DNA of 20,842 bases from Actinobacteria bacterium UBA4719 (lineage in GTDB: Bacteria; Actinomycetota; Actinomycetes; Actinomycetales; Dermatophilaceae), in the NCBI GenBank assembly GCA_002404345.1, contig DHJN01000245.1:1-20842 (forward strand), in the 5' to 3' direction. Positions 4,586-19,074 of the stretch are shown here, in pieces (within the stretch, counting starts at the first letter, position 1; every line of letters begins with the position of its first letter). The notes under the pieces were generated by a model. The model was not told the DNA's origin. It was given only the letters and a program-made list of their open reading frames with translations, and did not search any database. The position numbers were made by a program, and so were the translations under genes.

Positions 4586-6214
4586 TCAGGTCAGCTTTCG
4601 TCGCCCGCTGCCGCCAACGTCGAGCAGCGCTTCCCGCACGGCCTCCCGCTCAGGGCCAGTCAAGGGGGGCCGCGTGGCCAGCCGCGAATGGTCGCGCAGC
4701 TGCTGCTCGGTCTCTGGGTCGACGACCACCGACGTCAGCCACGGATGCCCGAGCGCCCAGGCCATGCACAGATCGGCCACCCCTTCACGCCCCAGGTCCC
4801 GAGCCAGACCCTCGAGGGGCTCGCGCATGAGAGTGGTGTCGACCAGCGGCTCCCCCTCGACCGACGCCGTGATCCCCAGAGCCTCCCCCACGCGGACGCT
4901 GTGAGCGGCAACGACTGCTCCAGACGACTCCAGTGCTTCGGCTACACCGTCTTCCAGCCACCGGCGTCTGTCCAGTACGTCCACCGGCAGCCGCAGGTAG
5001 CCCAGACCTTCCAGGCGCAGGGCGTCCAGCAGCTCCCCAGGCGTGCGCACAGAGACCCCGACCCGTCCGACGTGACCGGACCTCTGGTACTCGACCAAGC
5101 GCCGCCACGCCGCCCCATCGCCGGAAACGGCCTCAACGACGCCCTCGAAGAGCACGGCGTCAGCTCGACGCCGGCCCAGCTCGGCAAAGCTTCGCTCCAT
5201 GCTGCTTTCGACGGCCAGCCCTGCAAGCTCGCGGTCATCGAGCCCCATCCGACCCCGAGGCAGGGCCAGCGTGGTGACCACACCGAGCCTCTGTTTCAGC
5301 GCCGGATCGCTACCCGAGCGAAAGGTCGCCTCGGTTCGATCGTCGGAACGGTTGGTCGCCACGTGGCTGATGCCACGTTCGACGGCGACCTGCAGCATCC
5401 TGCGGACCACCGACGCGTCTGTGCGCTGGCGGGCCGGGTCGATGCCCTGGACCCGTCCAAGCCGGGTGACATCGAGCAGCAGAGCGGACTGCGCAAGCTC
5501 GGAGCTGTCGCGAATCGGGACCAGCGGGGTGTCAGCGTCGATCTGACGTCCGAGCTCAGTCATGAGCATCTGCCACGGGGCCCCCACCGGGTCCGGCATG
5601 GCGCCAAACAGCGCCGAGACACGGTCGTAGTCGGCGAGCACGTCCACGGTGCAGCGAAACTGGCGCGGATCCCTGGGAGACTCCCTCGGCACGAACAACA
5701 GCTCCCCGAGCTCACGACGCAACCACGGGGTGACGTGTTCGCGGTCGTACGACGCGGTGGCACGGGCCGCCGCGGTCCGGATTGCCTCGACGGTGAAGGC
5801 CTCGACTCCCAGTCCTTCGGGAACGCGCTCGATGTCGACCCGGCCGTAGATGTGTCCAGATACGTCCATTGCGGCGAGCAGCTCGTCCACCAGGTCGGCA
5901 TCGGCTACCGGGTTGTCACCAGTCAGTCGCACCACCCGGTCGGTCACATCGAGATCGGCGGTGGCGGCCACGAAACGGCCGAGCACGTCGTCGAGCGAGC
6001 CGCGCATCACCGGAATACCGACGGCGCTCAGATGCTCGGCGATCCGGCGGTCGTAGTGCTCGTCGCTGGTTGCCACGACAACCTCGTGCCCGCTACGGGC
6101 CGCACGCCGTGCGACGAGCTCGACCAGGGGCATTCCGGCGATGGTGAGCAGCGCCTTGCCGGGCAGACGGGAGGAGTTGAGTCGCGACTGGATGACCACG
6201 CGGGTCCGCTTCAC
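4586..6214 (-). CDS. spsF: SpsF-type cytidylyltransferase fused to a degenerate aldo/keto reductase domain
   Basis: The 542-residue product begins at the GTG at 6214, with GAGGAG 7 nt upstream. Residues 1-235 form an SpsF/NeuA-like nucleotidyltransferase: VVIQSRLNSSRLPGKAL (6-22) matches the usual RxxSxRLPGK loop and LTGDNPVAD (97-105) is the metal/sugar motif. Such enzymes make CMP-activated acidic sugars. Residues 246-510 resemble aldo/keto reductases of the kind often paired with SpsF (RLGRVQG, VAVERGISHVATN, VGRVGVSVRTPGELLDAL, LRLPVDVLDRRR). However, the catalytic tetrad appears lost: Asp to A286, Tyr to D291, Lys to T315 and His to about E357. The reductase half may be structural or sugar-binding. 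It is transcribed opposite to both neighbours and is divergent from the methyltransferase gene. Confidence 0.85.
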   Translation of the reverse strand: MKRTRVVIQSRLNSSRLPGKALLTIAGMPLVELVARRAARSGHEVVVATSDEHYDRRIAEHLSAVGIPVMRGSLDDVLGRFVAATADLDVTDRVVRLTGDNPVADADLVDELLAAMDVSGHIYGRVDIERVPEGLGVEAFTVEAIRTAAARATASYDREHVTPWLRRELGELLFVPRESPRDPRQFRCTVDVLADYDRVSALFGAMPDPVGAPWQMLMTELGRQIDADTPLVPIRDSSELAQSALLLDVTRLGRVQGIDPARQRTDASVVRRMLQVAVERGISHVATNRSDDRTEATFRSGSDPALKQRLGVVTTLALPRGRMGLDDRELAGLAVESSMERSFAELGRRRADAVLFEGVVEAVSGDGAAWRRLVEYQRSGHVGRVGVSVRTPGELLDALRLEGLGYLRLPVDVLDRRRWLEDGVAEALESSGAVVAAHSVRVGEALGITASVEGEPLVDTTLMREPLEGLARDLGREGVADLCMAWALGHPWLTSVVVDPETEQQLRDHSRLATRPPLTGPEREAVREALLDVGGSGRRKLT

Positions 6215-6319: not shown

Positions 6320-6345
6320 GTTATACCCCCACTAAAGGTGCCGTG

Positions 6346-7374
6346 ATGTCACAGTGGCTGGACGAGAACGAGCAGCTCCAGGGCGGGCTCGAGACATGCG
6401 AACCGATCTACCGCCCCACGAGCTTCTGGGCGCCGGGCCTGCGCCGGCTGTCGGCTGACCTGCACACTCGCGGACTCGAGTCCTTCAAGAGCTGGCCGGG
6501 GGCCTCAACCTGGTTCTACCCCGTCTACGGCAGCGGCTTCTCCAGCGCCACCATCAGGGCAACGTTCGATCACGCCAAGTCCATCAACCCAAAAGCGCGC
6601 GAGAACTGGGTGTCCTCCGCGCTCAACGGTTCACTGGAAGCCCGACGGGACTTCGACGCGGCCCGCCTCGCGTGGGACCAGGACCGGTGGCCCTTCGACA
6701 TCGAAGGTTACGGTGAGAGTCGCGTGGGCCAACCGCCACAGCGGTACCGGATGACCGGAACCGACGAGGTCGGCTGGGGAAGGCCCTATCTCAACTACCT
6801 GCTTTGTCTGGCGGCGTTGTCACAGCAGGTCGAGGTCGAGCCAACGAGCTTCCTTGAGATCGGGGGAGGTTTCGGGACGCTGGGTGAGATCGTCATGCCA
6901 CGCAACGGCGCCGCGCGATACGTCAACGTTGATTTCCCACCGCTGCTCACGGTGGCCGCCTACTACCTGGTCGAGCTGTTCGGGCAGGACCGGGTGATGC
7001 TCCCCACCGAGGCACCCGAGCATGGCCCGATCAAGGTGGCCGGCTCGGCCTGCCTGCCCAGCTGGCGACTGCCTGACGTCGTCGGCCCGTTCGACGTCTT
7101 CATGAACTCCTTCTCATTCCAGGAGATGGAACCCGACGTCGTCGACCACTACATCAACGTGGTCGCCGCTCTGGGTGTGCGGTATGCCGTGTCGTACAAC
7201 TCCGTGCACGGCAAGCCGAAGAAGGTCGAGGGACACGAGGGAGGCGTCCTCGACCCGATGACGTCCTCCCGGATCATCGACATGTTTGAGCGCCGCGGAT
7301 ACCACCTCCTGCGCACCTACCGAGACCCACTGGTCGTCAGCGCCGCCGAGATCGCCGTGCTTGAGCGGCGTTGA
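6346..7374 (+). CDS. Putative sugar O-methyltransferase (NanM-type)
   Basis: The 342-residue protein has the layout of the putative sugar O-methyltransferase family found in surface-polysaccharide and antibiotic clusters. A helical N-terminal region of about 160 residues is followed by a class I S-adenosylmethionine fold. Motif I is FLEIGGGFGTLGE (169-181), then RYVNVDFPPLL (191-201), with DVFMNSFSFQEM near residue 250 at the position usually called motif IV. It most likely methylates a hydroxyl of a nucleotide sugar or glycan. A GTG at 6343 is an alternative start, but the AAAGG spacing favours the ATG at 6346. It lies upstream of pseB on the same strand, 164 bp apart. The acceptor sugar cannot be inferred. 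Confidence 0.8.
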   Translation: MSQWLDENEQLQGGLETCEPIYRPTSFWAPGLRRLSADLHTRGLESFKSWPGASTWFYPVYGSGFSSATIRATFDHAKSINPKARENWVSSALNGSLEARRDFDAARLAWDQDRWPFDIEGYGESRVGQPPQRYRMTGTDEVGWGRPYLNYLLCLAALSQQVEVEPTSFLEIGGGFGTLGEIVMPRNGAARYVNVDFPPLLTVAAYYLVELFGQDRVMLPTEAPEHGPIKVAGSACLPSWRLPDVVGPFDVFMNSFSFQEMEPDVVDHYINVVAALGVRYAVSYNSVHGKPKKVEGHEGGVLDPMTSSRIIDMFERRGYHLLRTYRDPLVVSAAEIAVLERR

Positions 7375-7432: not shown

Positions 7433-7438
7433 TATCGT
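7433..7438 (+). promoter_or_regulatory. Possible -10 box upstream of pseB
   Basis: TATCGT in GGTATCGTG fits TANNNT and recurs as CTATCGTG before the PhyH gene. It would give a leader of roughly 95 nt before the GTG at 7539. No good -35 is visible and the 164-bp gap shows nothing else. Confidence 0.25.
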
Positions 7439-7538
7439 GTCATGCCAAGGTCGCCCCACGAACGCAGGTCCCACCGGGGGCTGTCTCGCTCGGGCACCAG
7501 CCTGGCCACGACGTCTTCGACAGCACGGGAGTGCATCA

Positions 7539-8522
7539 GTGAGTGTTCTCAAGGGATCGTCCATCCTGGTAACAGGCGGAACCGGTTCATTTGGCAAGTC
7601 GATCATCCGACACCTGCTGGACGAGATCGACCCAGCTCGTGTGGTGATCTTCTCGCGCGATGAGCTCAAGCAGTACGAGTGCCGCAACCTGTTCGACAAC
7701 GACTCGCGGCTGCGCTGGTTCATCGGCGACATCCGGGACCGGCACCGCCTCAACCGTGCGATGCACGGCGTTGACCACGTGGTGCACGCCGCCGCGCTCA
7801 AACAGGTCGACACCGCTGAGTACAACCCGTGGGAGTTCGTCAAGACCAACATCATCGGCTCGCAGAACGTGATCGAGGCGTGCATCGATGCCGGGGTCAA
7901 GAAGGTTGTGGCCCTGTCCACGGACAAGGCCTCCAGCCCGATCAACCTGTACGGCGCCACGAAGCTGACGGCGGACAAGCTCTTCATCACCGGCAACCAC
8001 TACGCCGCCGCGTACCCCACCCGTTTCTCCGTGGTCCGCTACGGCAATGTGATGGGCAGCCGTGGCTCGGTCATCCCGTTCTTCCGCAAGCTGGCCGCGG
8101 AGGGCAAGTCCCTGCCGATCACCGACCTGCGAATGACCCGCTTCTTCATCACCCTTCCTCAGGCTGTCGATTTCGTGATGAAGTCCTTTGAGCTCATGCA
8201 GGGTGGCGAGCTCTACGTCCCGCGCATCCCGTCGATGAAGATCGTCGACCTGGCTCAGGCCGTGGCGCCCGGCGCGCCCATGCACAACTCGGGGCTGCGG
8301 CCGGGTGAGAAGCTGCACGAGGAGATGATCTCCCCCGAGGAAGGCCGTCGTACGCTGCGAGTCGACGACCGCTACGTGCTCCAGCCCGATCTGGCGTCAT
8401 GGGGCTACAAGCCCCCTGCCGGGGGCGTCCCCGTGTCCGAGGGTTTCACCTACACCTCGGACACCAACGACCAGTGGTTCACGCCGGAGGAGATCCAAAA
8501 GATCCTCGAGACCCAGGGATGA
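7539..8522 (+). CDS. pseB: UDP-N-acetylglucosamine 4,6-dehydratase (inverting), PseB-type
   Basis: The 327-residue short-chain dehydrogenase/reductase-fold enzyme has an N-terminal NADP-binding VTGGTGSFGKSI (11-22), the family segment FSRDELKQYE (38-47), FIGDIRD (61-67), HAAALKQVDTAEYNPWEFVKTN (83-104) and STDKASSPINLYGATK. The latter carries D129, K130, Y138 and K142, which align with the catalytic residues of the known Helicobacter/Campylobacter enzymes. These convert UDP-GlcNAc to a 4-keto-6-deoxy sugar with C5 inversion, the first step of pseudaminic acid synthesis. The start is the GTG at 7539, set by GGGAG at 7527-7531. The downstream gene follows after 7 bp, suggesting an operon. None of the other pseudaminic-acid genes (pseC, H, G, I) are in the window. 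Confidence 0.93.
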   Translation: MSVLKGSSILVTGGTGSFGKSIIRHLLDEIDPARVVIFSRDELKQYECRNLFDNDSRLRWFIGDIRDRHRLNRAMHGVDHVVHAAALKQVDTAEYNPWEFVKTNIIGSQNVIEACIDAGVKKVVALSTDKASSPINLYGATKLTADKLFITGNHYAAAYPTRFSVVRYGNVMGSRGSVIPFFRKLAAEGKSLPITDLRMTRFFITLPQAVDFVMKSFELMQGGELYVPRIPSMKIVDLAQAVAPGAPMHNSGLRPGEKLHEEMISPEEGRRTLRVDDRYVLQPDLASWGYKPPAGGVPVSEGFTYTSDTNDQWFTPEEIQKILETQG

Positions 8523-8529
8523 GCCACTG

Positions 8530-9513
8530 ATGCATCACAGCAACCACTTCTACGGTCATGCCCACATCTTGGCCCGCTACGCGCGGCTGGCCGAGGTCCC
8601 CCGGATCTGGGGTTACGTCCAGCACGGCTGGAACATCCATGACGGATATGCGGTCGGCACAGTCTTCGCGCCAGGTTTCCCCAAGTACATCTGGTCCGAG
8701 GCGCCGGGCCGGCGCGGTTGGTCGGTCGGGTTGCGCAACTACCAGGTGATCGGCTCCCCGTGGGCATACCTTTTGAACCTGGAGCGGCAGGAGGAGTGGG
8801 AGCACGCCCAGCACCCCCGGGAAGGGACGATCGTCTACCCTTTTCATGGGTGGGAGCAGCAGAACATCGTCGGCAGCCACGATGGGTATGTCGAGGAGAT
8901 CAAGGCAACAGAGGACGGACCAGTCACCATCTGCCTCTACTGGAACGAGTATCGCGTTCCTGAGGTCCGTCGCTCGTATGAGCGAGCCGGCTTCCGGGTC
9001 ATCTCGCACGGTTACCGCGGTCACATGTGGCAGGGTACAGACGCCGATTTCCTGGACAAGCAGCTCGCCGAGCTACGCGCCCACCGCCGGGTGGTCTCCA
9101 ACCGGCTGGGCAGTGCTCTCTTCTACGGCGCCTCGGTGGGTTGCGAGATCGGCGTGTACGGCGATCCGATGATCCTCGAGGCGGAACGAGCAGTTCTCGG
9201 AGGGATGGGGCGGCAGAAGCGACTGTGGCCCGAGCTGCACCAGCCCGCGGTACCACAGGACATCGCCTCCGAGCTCGCCCGCGTCGAGCTGGGGACGGAC
9301 CTGATCCTGAGCCGGCCTGAGCTCATCGAGACACTGGGCTGGCGCCACGCCCGACGCGCCGAGGTCGGCGTGCCTCCCGTCGAGACGCAGGGCTCGCTCG
9401 CTGAGGGCGGCCCTTCGACCGACCAGGACACCCAAATGCGCGACGGCCGACTCGAACGTCTACCCACGGATGACTCTGGGCCGTTGATGGACCAGGACGG
9501 CGACACCGCCTGA
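8530..9513 (+). CDS. Conserved-looking protein of unknown function, possibly GT-B glycosyltransferase-like
   Basis: I do not recognise this 327-residue protein firmly. It starts MHHSNHFYGHAHILARYA and has RIWGYVQHGWNIHDGYAVG (45-63), a central IVYPFHGWEQQNI, a TICLYWNEYRVPEVRRSYERAG segment, and VVSNRLGSALFYGASVGCEIGVYGDPM. That last block, a conserved Ser/Gly loop followed by a beta-strand, recalls the C-terminal nucleotide-sugar lobe of GT-B capsule and teichoic-acid enzymes. The tail after about residue 275 is polar and acidic, probably disordered (GGPSTDQDTQ, DDSGPLMDQDGD). There is no signal peptide or membrane segment. It follows pseB after 7 bp, so it is likely co-expressed and part of glycan assembly. 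It could alternatively be a modifying enzyme. Confidence 0.6.
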   Translation: MHHSNHFYGHAHILARYARLAEVPRIWGYVQHGWNIHDGYAVGTVFAPGFPKYIWSEAPGRRGWSVGLRNYQVIGSPWAYLLNLERQEEWEHAQHPREGTIVYPFHGWEQQNIVGSHDGYVEEIKATEDGPVTICLYWNEYRVPEVRRSYERAGFRVISHGYRGHMWQGTDADFLDKQLAELRAHRRVVSNRLGSALFYGASVGCEIGVYGDPMILEAERAVLGGMGRQKRLWPELHQPAVPQDIASELARVELGTDLILSRPELIETLGWRHARRAEVGVPPVETQGSLAEGGPSTDQDTQMRDGRLERLPTDDSGPLMDQDGDTA

Positions 9514-9525: not shown

Positions 9526-9559
9526 AAACTCCCCCAACTTCAAAACTCCCCCAACTTCA
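9526..9559. repeat. Perfect 17-bp tandem duplication in the ACP leader
   Basis: AAACTCCCCCAACTTCA occurs at 9526-9542 and directly again at 9543-9559 with no mismatch. It sits between the putative -10 box and the ribosome-binding region of the ACP gene, so copy number would alter the 5' leader. Confidence 0.95.
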
Positions 9560-9570
9560 AGGCGAGGCGG

Positions 9571-9825
9571 ATGATGAGCGCACTGAGCAGAGATCAGCTA
9601 CGGACGATGATGGGCGACGTGCTCGAGGCACAGGGCAAGACGATTCCCTCGAGCGACGATTCCCCGCTGGACGAGATCGGCTTCCGCTCGCTGGACTTCT
9701 CCGAGCTGGCTCTGCGGGTCGAGGACGAGCTGGGCAGCGAGCTCAACTTCGACGCTCCGGGACTGCGTGCGATCGAGACCGTCGGAGACGTCCTTGAGTT
9801 CCTCGAGCAGCTTCAGCTAGCGTGA
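9571..9825 (+). CDS. Acyl carrier protein
   Basis: The 84-residue protein is a typical small four-helix carrier. IGFRSLDFSELALRVEDELG (36-55) contains the phosphopantetheine attachment Ser40, in an RSLDF variant of the usual DSL motif. It also has the expected acidic helix II and III residues and the C-terminal VGDVLEFLE segment. It carries an acyl or aminoacyl group as a thioester once modified by a phosphopantetheinyl transferase. Two adjacent ATG codons (9571 and 9574) are possible starts; GAGG at 9564-9567 fits the second better. The stop overlaps the ligase start by 4 bp (GTGA), so the two are probably translationally coupled. Its motif and neighbours suggest a dedicated carrier rather than the fatty-acid-synthesis ACP. 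Confidence 0.92.
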   Translation: MMSALSRDQLRTMMGDVLEAQGKTIPSSDDSPLDEIGFRSLDFSELALRVEDELGSELNFDAPGLRAIETVGDVLEFLEQLQLA

Positions 9826-11054
9826 GGCGCCACCCGGAAGCGGTGGGTACTGCCCTCCCACCGGGGTCGGGCAACAGGATTGTGATCGGCGGGTTCCGCG
9901 GCACGTGGGCCGACGTCTCAACAGCTTCGCTCCCCGCCGTCGCTGCCGCACTGGTTGAAACCCACCTCGCCGCGGCTGGCGCGGCCTGGGAGCACGCGAC
10001 CTCGCCACGCGAGACGCTCATCGCCGGCGCTGGCCGTGTGTCCGATGATCAGGCCCAAGAGCTGCGAGATGACGGATTCACCCTGGTCAGGGGCGAGAGT
10101 ATCGAACCGGCGTCCCAGCAACGCGAGGCCGTCACCGGACGACTGTGGCTCCTGACCAGCGGAAGTACCGGCCGGCCCAAGCGGGTCGCACACACTTTGC
10201 AGTCCCTGACGACAGTGGCAGCCGATCAGCCACCGCGTCGCTGGCTGTGCCCATACTCCCCTGGTGCGTATGCGTGGTGGCAGGTCGTGACCCTGTCGCT
10301 GGCCCACCCAGGGCAGGACGTGGTGTTCGTCGAGGCCGCGCAGCTCGACAGCTGGCCGCAGCTCGCGCTTGCCGAGGGCGTCACAGCCGCCTCAGGCACC
10401 CCCACATTTTGGCGACAGGCGCTCTGGCGCTCTGCCGAGACGGTTGCCAAGCTGCCGCTGGAGCAGATCACGCTCGGCGGAGAACCGGTGGACCAGGCGA
10501 TTCTCGACCGGCTGACCGCGCTGTTCCCAGCTGCGCGTATCTCGTGGATCTACGCTTCAAGCGAGGCAGGTGCGAGCATCGCTGTGCACGACGGCCGAGC
10601 CGGCTTTCCCGTTTCCTGGCTCGACCGCGACGTGCCGGGCAGGCCCCTTTTGACCGTGGTGGACGACGAGCTGCTCATCGACTCAGCGTGGAGCGCCAGA
10701 GGCTTCGAAGGTCCGCTGCGTACCGGCGACCGAGCGGAGATCATCGACGGCCGTGTGCACATCACCGGCCGCGTTGCCTCGGACGAGATCAACGTCGGTG
10801 GTTCGAAGGCCTCGGCCTCGGCCGTGCGGGCTGTGCTGCTTGCACATCCGGCGGTGGTGTGGGCTCAGGTCCGGGGACGACGTGCGCCAATCGTGGGCAA
10901 CGTCGTGGCCGCAGACGTCGTCCTCGACGGCCCGGTGAGCCAGGCGGAGCTCACCGGCTGGTGCTCGGAACGACTGCCCGACTACTCGGTTCCGCGACGA
11001 CTACGGTTGCTGAACGAAATCCCGATCAAGGAGACCCTGAAAAGCGATGTCTGA
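9822..11054 (+). CDS. AMP-forming acyl/aminoacyl ligase (ANL superfamily)
   Basis: The 410-residue enzyme is of the adenylation family. The phosphate-binding loop is LLTSGSTGRPKR (110-121). IYASSEAG (243-250) is the A5-type motif, LRTGDRAEI (299-307) the ribose-binding TGD motif and ITGRVASDEINVGG (314-327) the hinge. The final residues IPIKETLKSDV hold the likely catalytic lysine (K407). At 410 residues it is shorter than typical acyl-CoA synthetases because the N-terminal subdomain is reduced. It would adenylate a small carboxylic or amino acid and load it on the adjacent ACP, whose stop codon it overlaps. The SDR gene overlaps its 3' end by 8 bp. Substrate is not predictable. The GTG start at 9822 is supported by the overlap. 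Confidence 0.85.
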   Translation: MRRHPEAVGTALPPGSGNRIVIGGFRGTWADVSTASLPAVAAALVETHLAAAGAAWEHATSPRETLIAGAGRVSDDQAQELRDDGFTLVRGESIEPASQQREAVTGRLWLLTSGSTGRPKRVAHTLQSLTTVAADQPPRRWLCPYSPGAYAWWQVVTLSLAHPGQDVVFVEAAQLDSWPQLALAEGVTAASGTPTFWRQALWRSAETVAKLPLEQITLGGEPVDQAILDRLTALFPAARISWIYASSEAGASIAVHDGRAGFPVSWLDRDVPGRPLLTVVDDELLIDSAWSARGFEGPLRTGDRAEIIDGRVHITGRVASDEINVGGSKASASAVRAVLLAHPAVVWAQVRGRRAPIVGNVVAADVVLDGPVSQAELTGWCSERLPDYSVPRRLRLLNEIPIKETLKSDV

Positions 11055-11796
11055 GCCCCTCGGTCCCATTCCGGCCGCCACGTGCGTCCTCGTCTCGGGA
11101 GGTTCGCGCGGGCTCGGCCTGGCGCTGGTCACCGATGCCCTCGCCCGCGGCGCCAATGTCGCCACGTTTGCCCGAACTGTTACTCCCGAGCTCAAGGAGC
11201 TGGCGCTGCAGCACCCCACGAGCCTCCACGTCGGCTCGGTGGATGTTACGGATACCGCAGGTCTGACTGCGTTCATCCGCGAATCAGCGGCCAAGCTGGG
11301 CCCGATCGACGCCCTGGTCAACAATGCGGCCATCGGCCAGGACAGCCTTCACATCCACACCTCGCCCGAGCAGATCGCCGCGCTCGTGGCCACCAACCTC
11401 ACAGCGCCCCTTCTGCTGACGCGAGCGGTGCTGCGCCACATCATGGCGCGCGGCGGCCGAGGGCGCATCGTGATGGTGACCTCGGTGTGCGCCCAGCGCG
11501 GTTACTCCGGACTGGTCGCCTACTCGGCGACCAAGGGAGGGCTCGACAGTGCGGTGCGCACGCTGGCGAGGGAGATGCACGGACGTGTTCTGATCAACAG
11601 CGTGGCTCCTGGGTTCTTTGCCTCCGAGATGTCCTCGGTGCTCGGCCCGGACCAGCTTGAGACCATCACGCGCCGTACACCCTCGGGCCGGCTGGTGGAA
11701 CCCGAGAACATCCTTCCCGTCGTGCGTTCCCTCCTCTTCGAGGACACGAACTTCAACGGCCAGGTGCTCACCGTCGACGGCGGCTCCAGCATCTGA
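11047..11796 (+). CDS. Short-chain dehydrogenase/reductase, FabG-like
   Basis: The 249-residue classical SDR has the cofactor loop SGGSRGLG (17-24), NNAA (92-95) and the catalytic S146 with Y159 and K163 (YSATK). The C-terminal VAPGFFASEM and LTVDGG motifs are also present. This resembles beta-ketoacyl-ACP reductases, and the position directly after ACP and ligase genes suggests that the substrate may be a carrier-bound keto or hydroxy acyl group. It overlaps the ligase gene by 8 bp, and the following gene starts on the very next base after its stop (TGAATG). Alternative roles, such as nucleotide-sugar reduction, cannot be excluded. Confidence 0.87.
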   Translation: MSEPLGPIPAATCVLVSGGSRGLGLALVTDALARGANVATFARTVTPELKELALQHPTSLHVGSVDVTDTAGLTAFIRESAAKLGPIDALVNNAAIGQDSLHIHTSPEQIAALVATNLTAPLLLTRAVLRHIMARGGRGRIVMVTSVCAQRGYSGLVAYSATKGGLDSAVRTLAREMHGRVLINSVAPGFFASEMSSVLGPDQLETITRRTPSGRLVEPENILPVVRSLLFEDTNFNGQVLTVDGGSSI

Positions 11797-12306
11797 ATGG
11801 CGGCCCTCTCGAGGCTGCTGCGGGCAGCCGAGCAGACGTGCACCCTTGTCGCTCCAGAGTCAGCGGTGGGAACCGCGCAAGGCCTTCGGTCCCACCTTGC
11901 CGACGGCAGGGTCGTCTGCTGGTCGGCCTCGGTGCCGCGCGGGTTGCGGCTGGCGGTGGACGCCGAGATCAGCGACCAGCCTGTCCCACCGGCCTTGGCG
12001 TACCGGTTCGACCTGGTCGATCCCCACCGGTTCTGGGCTGCATGGACCGCCGTCGAAGTCTCTTGCAAACTGCGTGACGTACCCATTCTGACGTGGCTAA
12101 AACGCCGAGGCCTGACCCCGGACCCCGCTATCCGTACGAGAACCCTTCGGATAGCGGACATCACCGTGACCTGCGGTGCGGCAGACCTGGGGCACGCCGT
12201 GGTGAACGATCGAATGCAGGATCGAGTGCAGGGAGCCTGGCAGACGCCAGAAGGGCCCTACGATCGCGAAAGGCGACGCAGCATGACCTTTGCGCGGCGG
12301 GTATAG
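11797..12306 (+). CDS. Small 4'-phosphopantetheinyl transferase-like protein
   Basis: This 169-residue protein begins immediately after the SDR stop codon. Two segments match, in order and spacing, the signature of the Sfp/AcpS superfamily. LAVDAEISD (52-60) resembles the GVDIE metal motif with D55 and E57. FWAAWTAVEVSCKL (79-92) resembles WxxKEAxxK, keeping W83, E87 and K91 but with Val86 in place of the first Lys. Enzymes of this family transfer phosphopantetheine from CoA to an ACP serine, and an ACP is encoded three genes upstream in the same tight operon. The protein is shorter than Sfp-type enzymes (about 220 residues), closer to one and a half AcpS domains. Its 3' end overlaps the convergent gene by 49 bp. 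The assignment rests on motif reading only. Confidence 0.55.
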   Translation: MAALSRLLRAAEQTCTLVAPESAVGTAQGLRSHLADGRVVCWSASVPRGLRLAVDAEISDQPVPPALAYRFDLVDPHRFWAAWTAVEVSCKLRDVPILTWLKRRGLTPDPAIRTRTLRIADITVTCGAADLGHAVVNDRMQDRVQGAWQTPEGPYDRERRRSMTFARRV

Positions 12307-14156
12307 CCCGGCGGGATGACCGAGAGGACGACTCGGCGGCTGAGGAGGACGATCGCTCGCAGCGGCCACGTGAGCACCCGGCCGATCCGGAAGCTCACCG
12401 AACCGCGAATGGCCGAGAGCGTCCCATCCAGCTCGCCGACCCGGACGTCGCGTGCCCGCAGCGCTGCCTCCAGCCAAACAACCTGGCCTTCGCGCTCGTG
12501 GAGCGCCTGGGCCATCCGGCCGCCGGAGGCCAGTGCCTCTCGGTAACCGCGGAACGGGCCCCCACTTGATGCGTACTGGGAAGCTCCACCCTCGAGGTTG
12601 GACGCGTAAGCCCGGGCCTCGTCCGACGCATCTCCGCCTTGCAGGACGGTCTGGAGCTCCGCCTCGACCCGCGCGGCAACGTCAACCAGATGGGGGCGCC
12701 ACTCAACTCCCGCCATTGAGGCCAACGTCTGAGCGAGCGCGTCCGGGCTGATGTCCGGAGTCCATGGGTGCTCGGCGCCGGAGCGCAGCAACCGTCGGGC
12801 GAAGTCCCGCAACCCACGCACGATCAGGATGTCCGGGTCGAGGTGTGCGGTCCAGCGCCAGCTGTTGTCGAAGCACGCAAGGCCGGTATCGCTGACCACG
12901 ACGTTGGATGGCACGGCGAACAGCCGGCCTCCGGCCGATCCCTCCGGCCACACCTCAGAATCGCCCAACCATGTGGCGTAGCGCTGGACCAGCTTGCGGA
13001 CCGATGTGATGCTGCCGGTTGCACAGACCCGACGCAGGAGCGCCTCGAGGTTGGCGCCCTCGGGCACCAGCTCCGGGAGCTGGCTGTAGTCCCTGAGCAC
13101 GCGGCGTTCGCGCATCTCCGTAAGTTTGGAGACGGGCAGGGCCTGGTGGGTCCATCGACCGTCCTGTAGCTGCAACGTAGTGAGGGCGCGCCACTCGCTG
13201 CGGCCGCTGTCCTCACTGGCCATCAGCGCGGGCAGTGAGTCTCGGGCGGCGGCATCCGTAGCGGCGGCACCCGTAGCGGCGGCACCCGAAGCGGCGGCTT
13301 CGGTGGAGAGGCGGGCAACCACGATCCACAGCGGCGCGAACTCCATCGTCAGCCCGCTTTCGAACAGGCGCAACGACATGTCGTAGGCATCGACGAGGGA
13401 GGGCTGCTTGGAGAAGTGGGACTGCTCCATCCGTGCAGTAAGTGCAGCGGCCGTCGAGGCAACTGCCGGGGAATCGACCGCGTTGCTGTCGATGAGCAGG
13501 GACAGCGACTCTGCGGCAGGGAAGGCGGCATACACCGAGTCCGGGATCAGGTTGGCGGACTCCAGAGCGCCGCGCAGCTCGCGGTAGTACAGCGCCCGGT
13601 CATCGAAGCCGATGGCCCCGCGGTGCCACATGTCGTCACCGTCATACACGTCGCGGATCTTCATCCGGAACTGCTTGTCGAAGCCAAGCTCGTTGTCGAC
13701 GGAGGCCATCAGCGTGCCGTCCGCCGAGAGCCATCCGGCCAGCTTGCACAGCAACTCGCCATGGCCGAGTCCGACCGAGTCCGGGGACAAGAGATCGCTC
13801 GGGGCGCCAAGGGCCACGATCAAGTCGTACGACCCCTTGGTGTCGAACCGGTCGAGCCCCCCGCAGTAGACCGTGACGCCAGACCTCAGTCGCGACGCGC
13901 TGGCGAGCTTTCGCGCGTCAGGCAACCCTCGCACCAAGAGATCGACCGCTACAGCGTCTGGCAGATGTGCCACGAGATGGCTGGCTCGCACCCCGAGAAC
14001 CAGGACTCGTTTCGGGGTCTTGCCAGTGCGAAGAACACACCTCAGGAGGGGCGCCAGGCCTCCTGGGGAACTCTCATTCGCGAGGTCGGACCACTCTTGC
14101 ATCTCGCCACCGACGAGCCGGCTGCCAGAGGCGGCATCTACCTGATAGGAGGGCAA
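12258..14156 (-). CDS. Large methyltransferase-like protein with coiled coil and C-terminal hydrophobic tail
   Basis: About 632 residues if it starts at the TTG at 14156, which has AGGA 5 nt upstream; the frame remains open further upstream without conserved sequence. Residues 40-270 look like a class I methyltransferase fold (VLVLGVRAS at 51-59, YDLIVALGAPSDLL from 110), but the glycine-rich motif I is degenerate. A low-complexity Ala-rich linker (285-305) follows. A second domain around 415-437 reads VPSNVVVSDTGLACFDNSWRW, resembling a PxNxxxxxxGxxxxFDxxW block seen in polysaccharide methyltransferases and kinase-like folds. A coiled coil (about 540-585) and a basic/hydrophobic tail (RIGRVLTWPLRAIVLLSRRVV) follow, as in many membrane-associated glycan enzymes. 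It may modify, cap or scaffold the growing glycan. It is transcribed opposite to both flanking operons. Confidence 0.6.
   Translation of the reverse strand: MPSYQVDAASGSRLVGGEMQEWSDLANESSPGGLAPLLRCVLRTGKTPKRVLVLGVRASHLVAHLPDAVAVDLLVRGLPDARKLASASRLRSGVTVYCGGLDRFDTKGSYDLIVALGAPSDLLSPDSVGLGHGELLCKLAGWLSADGTLMASVDNELGFDKQFRMKIRDVYDGDDMWHRGAIGFDDRALYYRELRGALESANLIPDSVYAAFPAAESLSLLIDSNAVDSPAVASTAAALTARMEQSHFSKQPSLVDAYDMSLRLFESGLTMEFAPLWIVVARLSTEAAASGAAATGAAATDAAARDSLPALMASEDSGRSEWRALTTLQLQDGRWTHQALPVSKLTEMRERRVLRDYSQLPELVPEGANLEALLRRVCATGSITSVRKLVQRYATWLGDSEVWPEGSAGGRLFAVPSNVVVSDTGLACFDNSWRWTAHLDPDILIVRGLRDFARRLLRSGAEHPWTPDISPDALAQTLASMAGVEWRPHLVDVAARVEAELQTVLQGGDASDEARAYASNLEGGASQYASSGGPFRGYREALASGGRMAQALHEREGQVVWLEAALRARDVRVGELDGTLSAIRGSVSFRIGRVLTWPLRAIVLLSRRVVLSVIPPGYTRRAKVMLRRLSRS
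13243..13302. repeat. 15-bp in-frame repeats encoding an Ala-rich linker
   Basis: Four units related to GTAGCGGCGGCACCC lie at 13243-13257, 13258-13272, 13273-13287 and 13288-13302; the middle two are identical. On the coding minus strand they give AAAxG/D pentapeptides between the two halves of the methyltransferase-like protein. Confidence 0.9.
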
Positions 14157-14206
14157 CGCTGTCCTTTCGGTGTGCTTCAGAGAACCGGTGCGGGTGCGTG
14201 CGGTGG

Positions 14207-14223
14207 GCCTAGCATAGGCTAGC
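14207..14223 (-). promoter_or_regulatory. Putative promoter with overlapping inverted repeat
   Basis: The inverted repeat GCCTA-gca-TAGGC (14207-14219), followed by the palindrome GCTAGC (14218-14223), contains two TANNNT boxes on the minus strand (TATGCT at 14216-14211, TAGCCT at 14221-14216). It is placed to start the mRNA of the methyltransferase-like gene about 50 nt upstream of its TTG. The symmetry over the -10 could be an operator, though no regulator gene is present. Confidence 0.4.
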
Positions 14224-14326
14224 GGTGACGGTCGGCCGTCCGATTCTGGCCGTCCCAGCGGGGCTTGAACAGCGCCTCCACTGACAGCACAACCACCGAG
14301 AGCACCTTCGAATGTGAGGCTTGAGA

Positions 14327-15196
14327 ATGACCCCGCGGCCATCCTTCAGCGCAGTCATGCTCTCCATGGGAGACCGACCGGATGAGCTGGCGCAGGCGCT
14401 CACGTCGCTGCTGAGCCAGCAGGGAGTCGACCTCGACGTCGTGCTCGTGGGCAATGGCTGGTCCCCGACAGGACTGCCGCCGGAGGTTCGATGCATAGCC
14501 CTGCCCGAGAACGTCGGTATCCCCGAGGGGCGCAACGTTGGGGCCCGGCATGCGCGCGGGGAGTACCTGTTCTTCTATGACGACGACGCGGTCCTGCCAA
14601 GTGAACATGTACTGACTGGGCTCGCGGACGTCCTCCGGCGCGATCCCGACACAGCCATCGCCCAACCTCGGCTTGAGGACCCGACCGGACTCCCCTCCCC
14701 CCGCCGCTGGGTGCCGAGGTTGCGGGTTGGGGACGGCAAACGTCCGGGGGTTGTCACCGTCTTCTGTGAAGGTGTGTTCGCTATTCGGCGGGATGCCTTT
14801 GAGGCGGTAGGGGGGTGGCCGGGTCAGTTCTTCTACGGCCACGAGGGCATTGATCTCGCGTGGCGGTTGTCCGATGCCGGGTGGAAGATCTGGTATGAGC
14901 CCTCCGTCGTGGTAAATCACCCGGCCACGAGCCCGGCACGCCACGCCGTCTACTACCGGATGAACGCGAGGAACCGCGTGTGGGTGGCACGGCGCAACCT
15001 GCCCTTGCCGTTGGCTCCGATCTACATTGCGGTCTGGGCCGCCATCACCGTGGCACGCATCCGGCGGCTCAGTCCTTTGAAGATCTGGTTCCGCGGCCTG
15101 CATGAGGGGTTGACCACCGACTGCGGACCACGCCGTCCGATGAGCTGGCGAACGGTGCTGCGGATGAGCATCGCCGGTCGGCCTCCCATCGTGTGA
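14327..15196 (+). CDS. GT2 glycosyltransferase, rhamnosyltransferase-like
   Basis: The 289-residue GT-A enzyme has SAVMLSMGDRPDELAQALTSL at the N-terminus, NVGIPEGRNVGARHARGEYL (62-81), the metal-binding FFYDDDAVLP with DDD at 85-87, and FFYGHEGIDLAWRLSDAGW (168-186), the acceptor/base region. It belongs to the broad family 2 group that includes rhamnosyl- and other deoxysugar transferases. The C-terminus (to 289) is basic with a short hydrophobic helix (LAPIYIAVWAAITVARI), probably membrane-associated. I chose the ATG at 14327 because GAGG at 14316-14319 is 7 nt upstream; a TTG at 14321 is in frame. It overlaps the next gene by 4 bp (GTGA), so the two transferases are likely coupled. Confidence 0.88.
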   Translation: MTPRPSFSAVMLSMGDRPDELAQALTSLLSQQGVDLDVVLVGNGWSPTGLPPEVRCIALPENVGIPEGRNVGARHARGEYLFFYDDDAVLPSEHVLTGLADVLRRDPDTAIAQPRLEDPTGLPSPRRWVPRLRVGDGKRPGVVTVFCEGVFAIRRDAFEAVGGWPGQFFYGHEGIDLAWRLSDAGWKIWYEPSVVVNHPATSPARHAVYYRMNARNRVWVARRNLPLPLAPIYIAVWAAITVARIRRLSPLKIWFRGLHEGLTTDCGPRRPMSWRTVLRMSIAGRPPIV

Positions 15197-16239
15197 CCGC
15201 ATCGTCGACGGGACCACCATCAATGGGACCACCATCAACGGGACGACCCTCGGTACGGGTCTTCCTTTCCGGCGTACAGAGTGTCACCCACCTTCTTTAT
15301 GCGTCCTCCTACCTACGCCACCTGATCGAAGACACCGGGGCGGCCGTCACGCTGGTCGACCTCGGGGTCGGGCGCTTCCTCGGTCGGGCCAACGTGACCG
15401 CCCAGGATCTTCGTGGGGTGCTGGGCGACGACCCCAGGCTGACCGTGATCGGCGCGGAAGGCGCCGCACGCTGGCGCAGCGAACCCGGTGAACGGTGCAT
15501 CTACATGGGTGTCGGAGCGCCGGGGATCAAGCCATACCTCCGGTTGCGCGCGGCCCGGCCTTCCCGGGGGCTTCACGTCGTCGTCATCAATGAGGGCATC
15601 GGCAGCTATGGCAGCTGGCGCACGAGGCGCGTGGCGTTGCGCAGGCAGGGCGGGCGCGAGCCCTGGGCCTCTATCCGAGCCCTGGCGGTCGGCGCGGCAC
15701 GGAGCCTTCTCACCGACGAGCGCTGGGCGCTGTTCCGTCGGGCCGGCGCGGACTGGCTGGTCGACGATCGCGTCGCTGCAACGTTTCGGGCACGGATGAC
15801 GCCTCCGACCCCCACCAAGCCGGTGGGCGTGTTCCTTTCCCAACCCTGGGTGGACCTCGGGCTGATCACCGAAGCTGCCTACCTCGCCCATGTAGGTCAG
15901 GTGGCAGGAGTCTGTCGCTCGGCCGGTCTCGCCTTCCTTCTGAGTCCGCATCCAGCAGAGCCCGCCCAGCGTTATGCGGGGTTCGAGATGACAGCTCACC
16001 GCGGGCCGGCGGAGCTGGATCCGGACGTCGTCGGTGCGACCTTGGTCATCGGTGCGACGAGCACCGCTCTTCTCAACATCAAGGCGCTCTACGGGACTCG
16101 TGTCATCAGGGTCGTTGCGCCCGAGCTGACCCACCTCGACCACGAGCTGAGTCCCGGTCAGCGTTCGTTGCTGGACGCCTTTCTTCCTCCGGCTCGTCCG
16201 GTGACAACGCTGCTAGACAGGCTCACCGAGCTGGGGTAA
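15193..16239 (+). CDS. Sialyltransferase/polysialyltransferase-like glycosyltransferase
   Basis: The 348-residue protein lacks membrane segments. After a repetitive N-terminus comes VRVFLSGVQSVTHLLYASSYL (21-41). VVINEGIGSYGSW (130-142) resembles the [DE][DE]G motif of bacterial sialyltransferases with Asn in the first place (N133, E134, G135). VFLSQPWVD (213-221), LLSPHPAEP carrying the HP motif (H253, P254) and IGATSTALLNIKALYG with the Ser/Thr pair (290-291) follow in the order seen in families GT52, GT38 and polysialyltransferases. These use CMP-sugar donors, which fits the SpsF-type cytidylyltransferase in the locus. The GTG start at 15193 overlaps the GT2 stop; an ATG at 15223 is an alternative. 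The acceptor and exact sugar are unknown. Confidence 0.65.
   Translation: MTASSTGPPSMGPPSTGRPSVRVFLSGVQSVTHLLYASSYLRHLIEDTGAAVTLVDLGVGRFLGRANVTAQDLRGVLGDDPRLTVIGAEGAARWRSEPGERCIYMGVGAPGIKPYLRLRAARPSRGLHVVVINEGIGSYGSWRTRRVALRRQGGREPWASIRALAVGAARSLLTDERWALFRRAGADWLVDDRVAATFRARMTPPTPTKPVGVFLSQPWVDLGLITEAAYLAHVGQVAGVCRSAGLAFLLSPHPAEPAQRYAGFEMTAHRGPAELDPDVVGATLVIGATSTALLNIKALYGTRVIRVVAPELTHLDHELSPGQRSLLDAFLPPARPVTTLLDRLTELG
15210..15254. repeat. 15-bp in-frame tandem repeat at the 5' end of the sialyltransferase-like gene
   Basis: GGGACCACCATCAAT (15210-15224) is followed by a copy with one mismatch (15225-15239) and a diverged third copy (15240-15254). They encode GPPSM, GPPST and GRPSV just before the conserved domain. 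Confidence 0.9.
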
Positions 16240-16265
16240 TTGCCCGACTTCACGGCGTCATGACT

Positions 16266-16271
16266 TATCCT
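16266..16271 (+). promoter_or_regulatory. Putative -10 box of a leaderless ABC-transporter transcript
   Basis: TATCCT matches TANNNT and ends 6 nt before the ATG at 16278, with no Shine-Dalgarno sequence. TTGCCC at 16240-16245 is a possible -35, but the 20-nt spacer is long. Confidence 0.4.
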
Positions 16272-16277
16272 CGCCAT

Positions 16278-17171
16278 ATGACGGAACCGGTACCCGCGGC
16301 TGTGGGAGCGAATGCATCGCCCGCACCGAAGGACCTGGCAGCTCGGTATGGGCTGGCTCAAAGCGGTGCTCGCCCCACCCTGACCGCCTACATCAAAGCG
16401 CTGTGGGGGCGTCGGCATTTCATCGTGGAGTACGCACGAGCTCGCAACCAGGCGCAGTACACGGACACGGCTCTCGGGCAGGTCTGGCAGATCCTCACCC
16501 CGGTGCTCAACGCGGCCGTCTTCTACCTGATCTTCGGGATCCTGCTCAAGACCAGCCGCGGCGTGCACAACTACATCTCCTTTCTTGTCGTGGGTGTCTT
16601 CATCTTCACGTACACCCAGCGGGCCGTCCTGTCCGGGTCGAGGTCCATAGCGGGCAATCTCGGCCTGGTCCGGGCTCTGCACTTCCCCCGGGCAACGCTT
16701 CCACTGGCATCGACCGTGATGGAGCTGCAGCAGCTCCTCGTCTCGGTGGCGGTGTTGTGTGTCATTGTCCTTGCCACCGGCGAGCCGCTCACACTGAAGT
16801 GGCTGCTGCTCATCCCTGCGCTGCTCCTGCAGACGTTGTTCAACTGCGGGCTGGCTCTCATCTTTGCCAGGATCACCAGTCGCGTGCGTGACATGGAACA
16901 GCTCCTGCCGTTCGCACTGCGGACCTGGATGTACGCCTCAGGCGTCTTCTTCGTGATCCACACCTTCGCTCAGACTGTCCCGCTCGCCGCGCAGGTGGTG
17001 CTCAAGGGCAACCCTGCCGCCGTCTACATCGAGCTCGTGAGGGGATCATTGATGTCATCGCACCCCGCGGCACTTTACGAATGGCCGCTCGCCGTGTTCT
17101 GGGCTGTCGCCACCTTCGCGGTGGGCTTCGTCTACTTCTGGCGTGCGGAGGAACAGTATGGCCGTGGCTGA
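16278..17171 (+). CDS. wzm: Polysaccharide ABC exporter, permease subunit
   Basis: The 297-residue ABC-2-type membrane protein begins with a cytoplasmic amphipathic region carrying RRHFIVEYARARNQAQYTDTALGQVW (45-70), typical of TagG/Wzm permeases. Six hydrophobic segments follow at about 73-91, 98-115, 144-167, 174-198, 215-234 and 268-288. The ELVRGSLM segment near 252-259 is also family-typical. It would move a lipid-linked glycan or teichoic-acid-like polymer across the cytoplasmic membrane with the ATPase encoded next. An in-frame ATG at 16260 precedes the chosen start, but it would lie upstream of the predicted transcription start. The ATPase gene overlaps its end by 14 bp. Confidence 0.92.
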   Translation: MTEPVPAAVGANASPAPKDLAARYGLAQSGARPTLTAYIKALWGRRHFIVEYARARNQAQYTDTALGQVWQILTPVLNAAVFYLIFGILLKTSRGVHNYISFLVVGVFIFTYTQRAVLSGSRSIAGNLGLVRALHFPRATLPLASTVMELQQLLVSVAVLCVIVLATGEPLTLKWLLLIPALLLQTLFNCGLALIFARITSRVRDMEQLLPFALRTWMYASGVFFVIHTFAQTVPLAAQVVLKGNPAAVYIELVRGSLMSSHPAALYEWPLAVFWAVATFAVGFVYFWRAEEQYGRG

Positions 17172-17973
17172 CCGGGCGTCGATAAGAGAAGGCACGGTCA
17201 GGACCGGCAGCTATGGGCAGGAAGGCGACCGCGTCCCGACCGTCGTGGTGGACGACCTGCACGTGGTCTACCGTGTCGCGCGTGGCGGCGCCGGCGGGAA
17301 CGCGGCAGCATCCCTGCTGCAGGTCATCCAGCACAAGCCCCGGCAGGTAGTCACAGAGGTCCACGCGATCCGCGGTCTGACATTCACGGCCTACCGCGGC
17401 GAGGCGATCGGGGTAGTGGGGAGAAACGGCTCCGGCAAGTCGACTTTGCTGCGTGCCGTCGCAGGGTTGCTGCCACCGGCCTCCGGGGCGGTCTACACCG
17501 AGGGGCAGCCGTCACTTCTGGGCGTGAACGCCGCGTTGATGGACACCCTGAGCGGCGAGCGCAACGTCGTACTCGGCTGTCTGGCCATGGGCATGTCACC
17601 AGGTGAGGTGACCGCAAGGTATGACGAGATCGTGGCGTTCGCCGACATCCCCGACGAGGCGATCCAGCGCCAGATGAACACCTACTCCTCCGGTATGGCG
17701 GCCAAGCTGCGCTTCGCGATCGCCTCGGCCAAGACCCACGACGTCCTCCTGGTGGACGAGGCGTTGGCGACCGGTGACGCGGCCTTCCGGCGGCGGAGTG
17801 ACCAACGGATCAAGGAGCTACGCGAGGCGGCGGGCACGGTATTCCTCGTCAGTCACAACCTCGAGATCATTCGCGCAACCTGTCAACGCGCCCTGTGGGT
17901 CGACGAGGGCACACTTCGGATGGACGGGCCTGCGGACGAGGTCATCGACGCCTACGAGCGTGCCTACAAGTAA
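17158..17973 (+). CDS. wzt: Polysaccharide ABC exporter, ATPase subunit
   Basis: The 271-residue ATPase has Walker A GRNGSGKST (88-96), a YSSGM signature (176-180) in place of LSGGQ, as in Wzt/TagH proteins, Walker B VLLVDEALATGD (196-207) and the switch histidine H233 in LVSHN. The first 30 residues are polar and unmatched, and an insertion (ARGGAGGNAAASLLQVIQHKP) precedes the Walker domain, as in TagH-type proteins. There is no C-terminal carbohydrate-binding domain, so export probably does not depend on recognising a modified chain end. The start is the ATG at 17158, set by GGAGGA at 17147-17152. It overlaps the permease gene and pairs with it. Confidence 0.93.
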   Translation: MAVADRASIREGTVRTGSYGQEGDRVPTVVVDDLHVVYRVARGGAGGNAAASLLQVIQHKPRQVVTEVHAIRGLTFTAYRGEAIGVVGRNGSGKSTLLRAVAGLLPPASGAVYTEGQPSLLGVNAALMDTLSGERNVVLGCLAMGMSPGEVTARYDEIVAFADIPDEAIQRQMNTYSSGMAAKLRFAIASAKTHDVLLVDEALATGDAAFRRRSDQRIKELREAAGTVFLVSHNLEIIRATCQRALWVDEGTLRMDGPADEVIDAYERAYK

Positions 17974-18104: not shown

Positions 18105-18935
18105 ATGTCAATTGCCAGCGGGATCGACGTAGACGCTTTCTGGGATCAGGGCTACCAGCTCATCCCGAAAGTGTATTCGCCTGACGAGATCCGAAAGCTA
18201 CGCGAGGCCGCAATGGCTTCCCGCTCACGCGGCGGTGACGTTCTGTCGAACCCGGGGCTGAGGTCCTCCCTCACCGATGGCCGCCTCGTGGAGATCGCTC
18301 GCACGCTCCTGGGCAGCGACGAGATCGTCTACGCCGGTGACAGTTCGTTCACGTTCAACTCGAATCAACACGGCTATCACAAGGACAATGCCGACCGTAC
18401 GGACCCGAAGGCGCCGGACTGGCAAGGGCGCTACACGATCCTGCGTTTCGGCGTCTACCTTCAGGACCACTACACCCACACGAAGGGGCTCAATCTGCGC
18501 GAGCGTTCGCACAACACGACGTCACTGGCTGAGGGCAAGAACATCTATGTCCGGTCGCGGGTGGGTGATGTGGCGGTGTGGAGCCTACGTACCAGTCACA
18601 GCGGCAACGGGACACTGCTGAGCTTCCCCCGCTGGATCCACCCCGCGCCTGCTCAGGATGGCAAGTACCCGAAGTGGTGGCGGGTGGCGAAGCCAGATGG
18701 TGACCGGATTGCGGTGTTCGCGGCCCTCGGGCTGGACGATGCCCACCACCACCGCTACGTCGACTATCTCAAGACCCGGCAGTACATCGTGGGCATGTGG
18801 GGCAAGTCTCGCTATGACGACGAGACCCTCCAGGAGGCTCGACGCGCAGGCCTGACAGTGCGGGACGTTCCGCGTGAGGTCGAAGGCCGCTCGGATGTCG
18901 GCCAGAACGTTGCCTGGCAGGCCATCCCGTACTGA
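18105..18935 (+). CDS. Phytanoyl-CoA dioxygenase (PhyH) family Fe(II)/2-oxoglutarate oxygenase
   Basis: The 276-residue protein resembles the PhyH family. Its N-terminal FWDQGYQLIPKVYSPDEIRKLREA (12-35) is the usual opening. GYHKDNAD supplies the HxD metal motif (H92, D94), LRFGVYLQDHYTHTKGLNLRERSHN (113-137) is the family core strand, and RTSHSGNGT gives a candidate distal iron ligand (H165). Members hydroxylate small molecules, lipids or, in some polysaccharide loci, sugars. The last third contains unusual His-rich DDAHHHRYVDYLKTRQYI. It is the last gene before dprA, on the same strand as the exporter, so it probably modifies a glycan precursor. The substrate is unknown. Confidence 0.82.
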   Translation: MSIASGIDVDAFWDQGYQLIPKVYSPDEIRKLREAAMASRSRGGDVLSNPGLRSSLTDGRLVEIARTLLGSDEIVYAGDSSFTFNSNQHGYHKDNADRTDPKAPDWQGRYTILRFGVYLQDHYTHTKGLNLRERSHNTTSLAEGKNIYVRSRVGDVAVWSLRTSHSGNGTLLSFPRWIHPAPAQDGKYPKWWRVAKPDGDRIAVFAALGLDDAHHHRYVDYLKTRQYIVGMWGKSRYDDETLQEARRAGLTVRDVPREVEGRSDVGQNVAWQAIPY

Positions 18936-19024: not shown

Positions 19025-19074
19025 AACAACCGGACTCGCCCTGCTCGCTAACAACCAGACTCGCCCTGCTCGCT
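19025..19074. repeat. 25-bp tandem duplication covering the 3' end of dprA
   Basis: A 25-bp unit starting AACAACCGGACTCGCCC (19025-19049) is repeated at 19050-19074 with one mismatch. The second copy encodes the last residues of DprA and the junction makes its stop codon (complement of 19048-19050). Confidence 0.95.

Follow-up and report, generated by a model that had tools for sequence, protein, structure and literature searches.

Two described systems resemble a four-gene cassette that lies in a stretch of 20,842 nucleotides (hereafter the window) from Actinobacteria bacterium UBA4719, of the Dermatophilaceae (assembly GCA_002404345.1, contig DHJN01000245.1), and that encodes an acyl carrier protein (ACP), an AMP-forming ligase, a short-chain reductase (SDR) and a protein resembling a phosphopantetheinyl transferase (PPTase). 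The first is the ligase and ACP pair Cj1307/Cj1308 of a Campylobacter nonulosonic-acid locus, for which we know of no SDR or PPTase partner. The second is the antibiotic priming cassette of mupirocin (MupQ/MupS/MacpD) and thiomarinol; Walker et al., in 2020, are said to have described a bis-thioester intermediate, with TmlQ reportedly using succinyl-CoA. The MupQ/MupS/MacpD cassette makes 3-hydroxypropionyl- or 4-hydroxybutyryl-ACP, according to one account (PMC10098928). Judged from sequence, the first three genes of the actinobacterial cassette are homologous to this priming cassette, and the carrier module that the first-pass annotation of the window had recognised, correctly in outline, is a priming-cassette homologue dedicated to pseudaminic acid (Pse). 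We propose with moderate confidence that it makes an omega-hydroxyacyl-ACP from which PseH would transfer the acyl group to a Pse precursor, a reading in which we infer the substrate, product, donor and polymer. The argument draws on four features visible at the sequence level: the order of the genes, the homology that ligase and SDR both show to enzymes of the priming cassette, the association with Pse, and an exchange of GNAT proteins.

The four genes occupy the + strand. An ACP of 84 residues (9571..9825; PF00550, PP-binding, E 1.3e-6), with the motif GFRSLD and the attachment residue Ser40 (codon 9688-9690), is followed by an ANL ligase of 410 residues with a short N-terminal part (9822..11054; PF00501 and PF13193; MupQ/TmlQ-like group by tree), a MupS-type SDR of 249 residues bearing S-Y-K and RRTPSG motifs (11047..11796; PF00106, adh_short), and a compact PPTase-like protein of 169 residues (11797..12306; profile match 11809-12192). 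All were present as open reading frames (ORFs) with the junctions originally described, namely a 4-bp overlap, an 8-bp overlap and 0 bp; of the limits first assigned to the cassette, the end at 12306 stands, but the start at 9526 lies upstream of the first ATG, at 9571. A Pfam scan of 20 ORFs of the window reported neither a ketosynthase nor a thioesterase domain, in agreement with the earlier judgement that this is not a fatty-acid or polyketide system; a module of either kind was rejected because no ketosynthase domain was found among those ORFs.

Searched against sequences of the PDB, the SDR matched MupS best (E 5.8e-46), followed by a 3-oxoacyl-ACP reductase (E 7.9e-33); because MupS scores higher, a generic FabG identity was rejected. 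A tree of 31 SDR rows placed the cassette SDRs, MupS, TmlS and the SDRs of other ACP, ligase and SDR triads in one group (99/99) apart from host SDRs, the outgroup comprising 11 host rows of which 10 are different (L105 was left out, L100 is the same ORF as L104, and L097 was oddly trimmed). The motif RRTPxG or RRAPxG occurs in 74 of 75 cassette SDRs, the exception being L012, as well as in each of the 6 triad SDRs, and is absent from all 11 host rows; the SDR cluster numbers 76 with a non-cassette member (L078_20), hence the 75. The cassette ligases, in a tree of 22 rows, grouped with TmlQ (97/95) and apart from 8 host ANL rows, with warnings of long host branches; cas_L078, L127, L132 and L134, which had no trimming motif, and L129, L130 and L131 were left out of it. 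The ACP of the window gave a weak match to MacpD (E 0.015). The window shares with the mupirocin and thiomarinol cassette a contiguous ACP, ligase and SDR, the latter two grouping with TmlQ and with MupS/TmlS, but the order is ACP-ligase-SDR rather than ligase-SDR-ACP, and the window has no ketosynthase, carries a PPTase-like gene of its own, and has Pse genes in place of polyketide genes. Because the triad is related to MupQ/MupS/MacpD, a dicarboxylate in reduced form (3-hydroxypropionate or 4-hydroxybutyrate) is the most probable cargo, in place of the generic acid or amino acid at first suggested.

An alternative that we consider unlikely is that the product is an ordinary beta-hydroxyacyl group such as 3-hydroxybutyryl, with the ligase loading a beta-keto or beta-hydroxy acid and the SDR acting as a FabG-like ketoreductase; the cassette would still supply an N-acyl donor for Pse. 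The best NCBIfam matches of the SDR are indeed FabG models, under cut-off, and FdhC, which we take to be a sugar N-(3-hydroxybutanoyl)transferase, ranks second among the PDB matches of the PseH profile described below; moreover, PMC3210612 reports 3-hydroxybutyryl groups on amino sugars, a nonulosonic acid among them. Against this, MupS outscores all FabG-type chains in the PDB sequence search, the SDR is partnered with a ligase of the MupQ group, which points to the priming-cassette reaction, and free acetoacetate would probably be an unusual substrate.

To place the cassette among genomes, an alignment (A1) of ligase relatives was used to find 118 encoding stretches in the genome collection, and the best 80 of the 118 (loci L002-L081), which include Knoellia, Terrabacter, Dermacoccus, Raineyella, Micromonospora, Actinoplanes, Kribbella and Nocardioidaceae, were assigned gene content by profile search. 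The order ACP-ligase-SDR is kept in 79 of the 80 loci, on which ground chance assembly in one genome was rejected, and all four genes stand in order in 58. The other 22 include 16 Kribbella loci and one from Streptomyces with no PPTase-like gene after the SDR, together with L010 (PPTase-like gene about 5 kb off), L011, L024 (contig ends there), L078 and L077; the fourth gene is present in three Kribbella loci (L045, L048 and L057). PseI or PseH occurs in 76 of the 80 loci; in L002, for example, NCBIfam models place PseC, PseI and PseH over the cut-off and PseG under it. Four loci are without any Pse gene; in two of them (L066 and L080) the stretch starts under 3 kb ahead of the ligase, which is not so in the other two (L077 and L078). 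The survey of gene order proposed in the first-pass annotation accordingly bears out a carrier module of a surface-glycan locus, one that travels with sugar genes and specifically with those for Pse. The contrary pattern envisaged there, in which polyketide or siderophore genes would be the main neighbours, did not appear in the 80 loci, given that the cassette tracks with Pse in 76, but more distant triads do adjoin polyketide genes.

The same linkage is apparent when genomes rather than loci are counted. Among 58 genomes, that of UBA4719 included, the ligase is found in 13 and the PPTase-like gene in exactly those 13; PseI is found in 17, comprising 13 of 13 with the ligase and 4 of 45 without it (Fisher p 7.5e-10). 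Among 296 genomes of the class, again including its own, for which the ligase search scored six candidates per genome, the ligase occurs in 6, PseI in 14 and both in 5 (p 6e-7). The ligase and PseI are 0.9-1.9 kb apart in four of the five class genomes that have both, the fifth being the UBA4719 genome, where they lie on separate contigs. Some of the 58 genomes are represented by the same contigs as loci among the 80, so that these two sets are not independent; repeated contigs (L117, L118 and L119, equal to L002, L011 and L009, and L086, equal to L139) were counted once in tallies of distinct contigs. The window itself lacks PseC, PseG, PseH and PseI, and loss of Pse from this genome was considered and rejected: another contig (C204) carries PseC (cut by the contig end), PseB, PseH, PseI and PseG, so that the pathway is present and divided between contigs.

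These associations bear on a further proposal, that the module loads an amino acid or some other unrelated acid and that its link with Pse is one of genomic neighbourhood only. ANL ligases are versatile, the solved relatives of this ligase including beta-aminoacyl-ACP synthetases, and two loci could be so explained: L077, with its ligase beside a glycosyltransferase-glycerophosphotransferase gene and no detected ACP or SDR, and L078, where a thioesterase gene follows the triad in a locus devoid of Pse genes. We regard this as very improbable in view of the Pse linkage in 76 of the 80 loci, the co-occurrence in both genome sets, and the pairing of the ligase with a MupS-type SDR.

The fourth gene, which had been thought a possible carrier-activating enzyme, remains a good candidate for that role by motif and, less decisively, by fold. 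Its product has no Pfam or NCBIfam match, yet 33 of 33 aligned rows of the family are invariant at D55-A56-E57, W83, E87, K91 and P96, constituting the residues DxE and WxxxExxxK, which we take to be PPTase motifs, and PPTases are the top fold matches of an AlphaFold2 (AF2) model, with middling fold scores. PF01648 did not match the window protein and matched 4 of 33 family members (best E 0.11), and a profile of the family searched against PDB sequences found no PPTase. In comparison with the Sfp/AcpS PPTases of PF01648, the protein shares the motif residues but has no Pfam match and is shorter than Sfp-type chains. From its motifs and predicted structure it looks like a compact PPTase missed by Pfam.

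The acyltransferase expected to act on Pse varies with the cassette. PseH is divergent from, and within 1.2 kb of, the ACP gene in 58 of the 79 triad loci; in 18 of the other 21, from Kribbella and Streptomyces, it lies 5-7 kb upstream with the same strand pattern, and it was not found in L066, L078 and L080. Against the TIGR03585 (PseH) cut-off of 93.1, the L002 protein scores 98.2 bits and that of L021 scores 75.8, under it. A profile of the cassette PseH, including one Azospirillum row, has Helicobacter pylori PseH (4xpk, E 1.8e-16) as its closest solved relative, ahead of FdhC. All three are of the GNAT family but differ at the place of H. pylori Tyr138, which is Tyr in the H. pylori enzyme, His in FdhC, and Asn wherever a PseH was detected together with the cassette (78 of 78 contigs or genomes, each counted once); PMC4363471 proposes Tyr138 as the general acid. 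Genomes with the cassette have PseH as a stand-alone GNAT. In four Pse producers free of the cassette, PseG is fused to a GNAT of another kind: G001 and G003, which share the genus of UBA4719, G017, from its family, and G172, from its class. Over 13 cassette-free Pse loci, the GNAT is of the other type in 8 and of the cassette type in 1 (G183), and none was found in 4; fusion of PseG to a GNAT was seen in none of 50 PseG frames (47 distinct) of cassette loci. A targeted search for the cassette-type ligase was negative in G001, G003, G017, G022, G183 and G266 (best 69 bits, against at least 530 for matches in the class set). Were PseH dependent on acyl-ACP, the GNAT type would be expected to switch with the cassette in this way. 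Single-frame fusions of PseG and GNAT, corresponding to a bifunctional PseG-PseH, were observed in the cassette-free actinobacterial Pse loci L135, L136, L137 and L109.

Whether PseH is the recipient enzyme is the point on which another explanation turns: that the hydroxyacyl-ACP serves a Pse hydroxyl or a different sugar through some other acyltransferase, with PseH only acetylating from acetyl-CoA. The likeness of the cassette PseH to an ordinary PseH acetyltransferase suits this view, as do the location of PseH on another contig in the UBA4719 genome, its absence from within 1.2 kb of the ACP gene in 21 of 79 triad loci, and an annotated acyltransferase adjoining the ACP gene in the triads of Rhodobacterales. 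We nevertheless think it quite unlikely, since the divergent PseH stands close by in the majority of triad loci, genomes with and without the cassette differ in GNAT type, and no other conserved acyltransferase was recognised among those recurrent neighbours that are annotated, not all neighbour clusters being so.

The route through PseH that we favour would run as follows. The PPTase-like protein would place phosphopantetheine on Ser40 of the ACP; the ligase would adenylate the free carboxylate of a dicarboxylate, most likely as malonyl-CoA or succinyl-CoA, and load it onto the ACP; and the MupS-type SDR would reduce the far end to an alcohol, giving 3-hydroxypropionyl- or 4-hydroxybutyryl-ACP. 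The PseH-type GNAT could then transfer the acyl group to the 4-amino group of UDP-4-amino-4,6-dideoxy-L-AltNAc, later N-7 of Pse, which would join a surface polymer exported by the Wzm/Wzt pair encoded in the window. A bolder extension, doubtful and offered tentatively, is that the priming cassette with its own miniature PPTase gives Pse an omega-hydroxyacyl arm to whose terminal hydroxyl a polysialyltransferase-like enzyme joins the next Pse, so that the backbone of an actinobacterial wall polymer would include the acyl group. Certainty falls from activation of the ACP by the PPTase-like protein, through the 3-hydroxypropionyl or 4-hydroxybutyryl thioester, transfer by PseH and the wall polymer, to linkage at the hydroxyl. 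If correct, the scheme explains in concrete, testable terms how nonulosonic acids could come to carry hydroxyacyl groups, connects sugars of the cell surface with a priming cassette of the antibiotic type, allows genome sequence to predict which actinobacteria, Micromonospora and Kribbella among them, should make Pse with an acyl modification, and brings in a small family of PPTase-like proteins undetected by Pfam.

Chemical precedent for the product exists. Polysaccharide backbones have been described in which 4-hydroxybutyric acid is joined to Pse by an amide bond (PMC9912281). Sugars with a 4-hydroxybutyramido group are mentioned from Pseudoalteromonas (PMC3210612) and, through the title of a cited work, from Idiomarina abyssalis (PMC9695755), and PMC6113628 gives teichuronic or teichulosonic acid as the main wall polymer of Kribbella. 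The literature searched yielded no description of the enzymes that make a 4-hydroxybutyryl-type group for Pse, and no prior description under Pse with ACP in actinobacteria, under Pse, ACP and PPTase together, or under the cassette-bearing genera; text searches of PMC7371886 and PMC13317340 found no carrier protein. Both halves of the system are known, and within that literature the union of the priming cassette with Pse and the PPTase-like family are undescribed. The first-pass annotation, which knew of no described module of this four-gene form in actinobacterial glycan export loci, needs correcting in that the triad has a described relative in mupirocin and thiomarinol.

Several observations weigh against the favoured reading. 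The outgroups of the SDR and ligase trees consist of the host's own paralogues only; over 330 residues the window ligase and TmlQ share only 26% identity; and the window ACP has no match to TacpD at E 1. MupS-like SDRs are very numerous (a protein search with TmlS gave 6332 matches; few of the 120 covered bore an organism name, and they gave no tie between the triad and organisms with known 4-hydroxybutyryl sugars), so that the SDR alone does not fix the substrate. The ligase of L077 and the triad of L078 occur without Pse genes, and in one genome (G076), whose cassette is on a 5.9-kb contig, no PseI match reached the threshold applied. Among solved structures, the one nearest to the cassette PseH profile, 4xpk, is an ordinary PseH acetyltransferase, and the cassette-free genome G183 encodes a cassette-type PseH (L110 4894-5373), with His at the Tyr138 place, and no cassette-type ligase. 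Finally, the literature searched yielded no structure of an acylated Pse from any species that bears the cassette.

Triads on plasmids were located by tblastn. On the thiomarinol plasmid pTML1 the ligase, SDR and ACP genes adjoin. Plasmid p3 of Azospirillum brasilense Sp7 (L088 8453-11784) carries ACP, ligase, SDR and ketoacyl-ACP synthase III genes between pseI and a flagellin gene; it shares with the window the ACP-ligase-SDR order and the presence of pseI in the locus, its ligase and SDR being 40% and 44% identical to those of the window, and differs in the additional ketoacyl-ACP synthase III and hydrolase genes, the adjoining flagellin gene and the lack of an annotated PPTase-like neighbour. 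Two plasmids of Rhodobacterales (L090 8393-10714 and L091 6766-9737) have the series acyltransferase-ACP-ligase-SDR close to genes for a glycosyltransferase, or for an aminotransferase and an epimerase, and are candidate glycan cassettes of the same type. In Bradyrhizobium and Burkholderia, ligase-SDR-ACP precedes a gene of more than 6 kb, annotated in Bradyrhizobium as a type I polyketide synthase. Among the 80 loci, that of Saccharopolyspora spinosa (L078 9747-12793) has ACP, ligase and SDR followed by the thioesterase gene, a variant that may release the acid; in that of Nocardioides marmoriginsengisoli (L077), the cassette-type ligase (10013-11239) follows the glycosyltransferase-glycerophosphotransferase gene and precedes oxidoreductase and aspartate decarboxylase genes.

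The window comprises the first 20,842 bases of a contig (C80) of 56,845 bases, in an assembly of 3.77 Mb in 275 contigs that is 87% complete, and surrounds the cassette with further glycan genes. PseB, the inverting UDP-GlcNAc 4,6-dehydratase (7437..8522, +; TIGR03589, 478 bits, cut-off 408), has a second copy on C204 (L139 909-1913), 88% identical in protein and DNA; directly after the window copy, where there is no PseC gene, comes a gene for a conserved protein of 327 residues (8530..9513, +) that recurs in related Pse loci (cluster 9, in 44 loci; relatives 61-66% identical) and gave no match in the Pfam scan. Upstream are a cytidylyltransferase-aldo/keto reductase fusion (4586..6214, -; PF02348 and PF00248), a candidate CMP-Pse synthase in the role of PseF, and a putative sugar O-methyltransferase (6343..7374, +; TIGR04371, 150 bits, cut-off 44). 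Downstream, one of the two family-2 glycosyltransferases of the locus (14321..15196, +; PF00535) precedes a polysialyltransferase-like protein (15193..16239, +), a candidate Pse transferase or polymerase: PF07388, the family of alpha-2,8-polysialyltransferases, matches it under cut-off (E 0.0034) and matches 4 of 5 members of its family (best E 3.7e-6). The exporter consists of a Wzm-type ABC permease (16260..17171, +; PF01061) and a Wzt/TagH-type ATPase (17143..17973, +; PF00005; TagH-like, under the equivalog cut-off). Two other genes are without Pfam match: 12258-14342 (-), whose relatives are present in many related loci, and 18105-18935 (+), which by eye has the appearance of a PhyH-type dioxygenase. 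Tyrosine recombinase, M23 peptidase, DprA and YifB-like genes (2396-3337, -; 1603-2307, +; 19048-20840, -) flank the glycan genes, which, from the housekeeping type of these flanks, appear inserted in a housekeeping neighbourhood.

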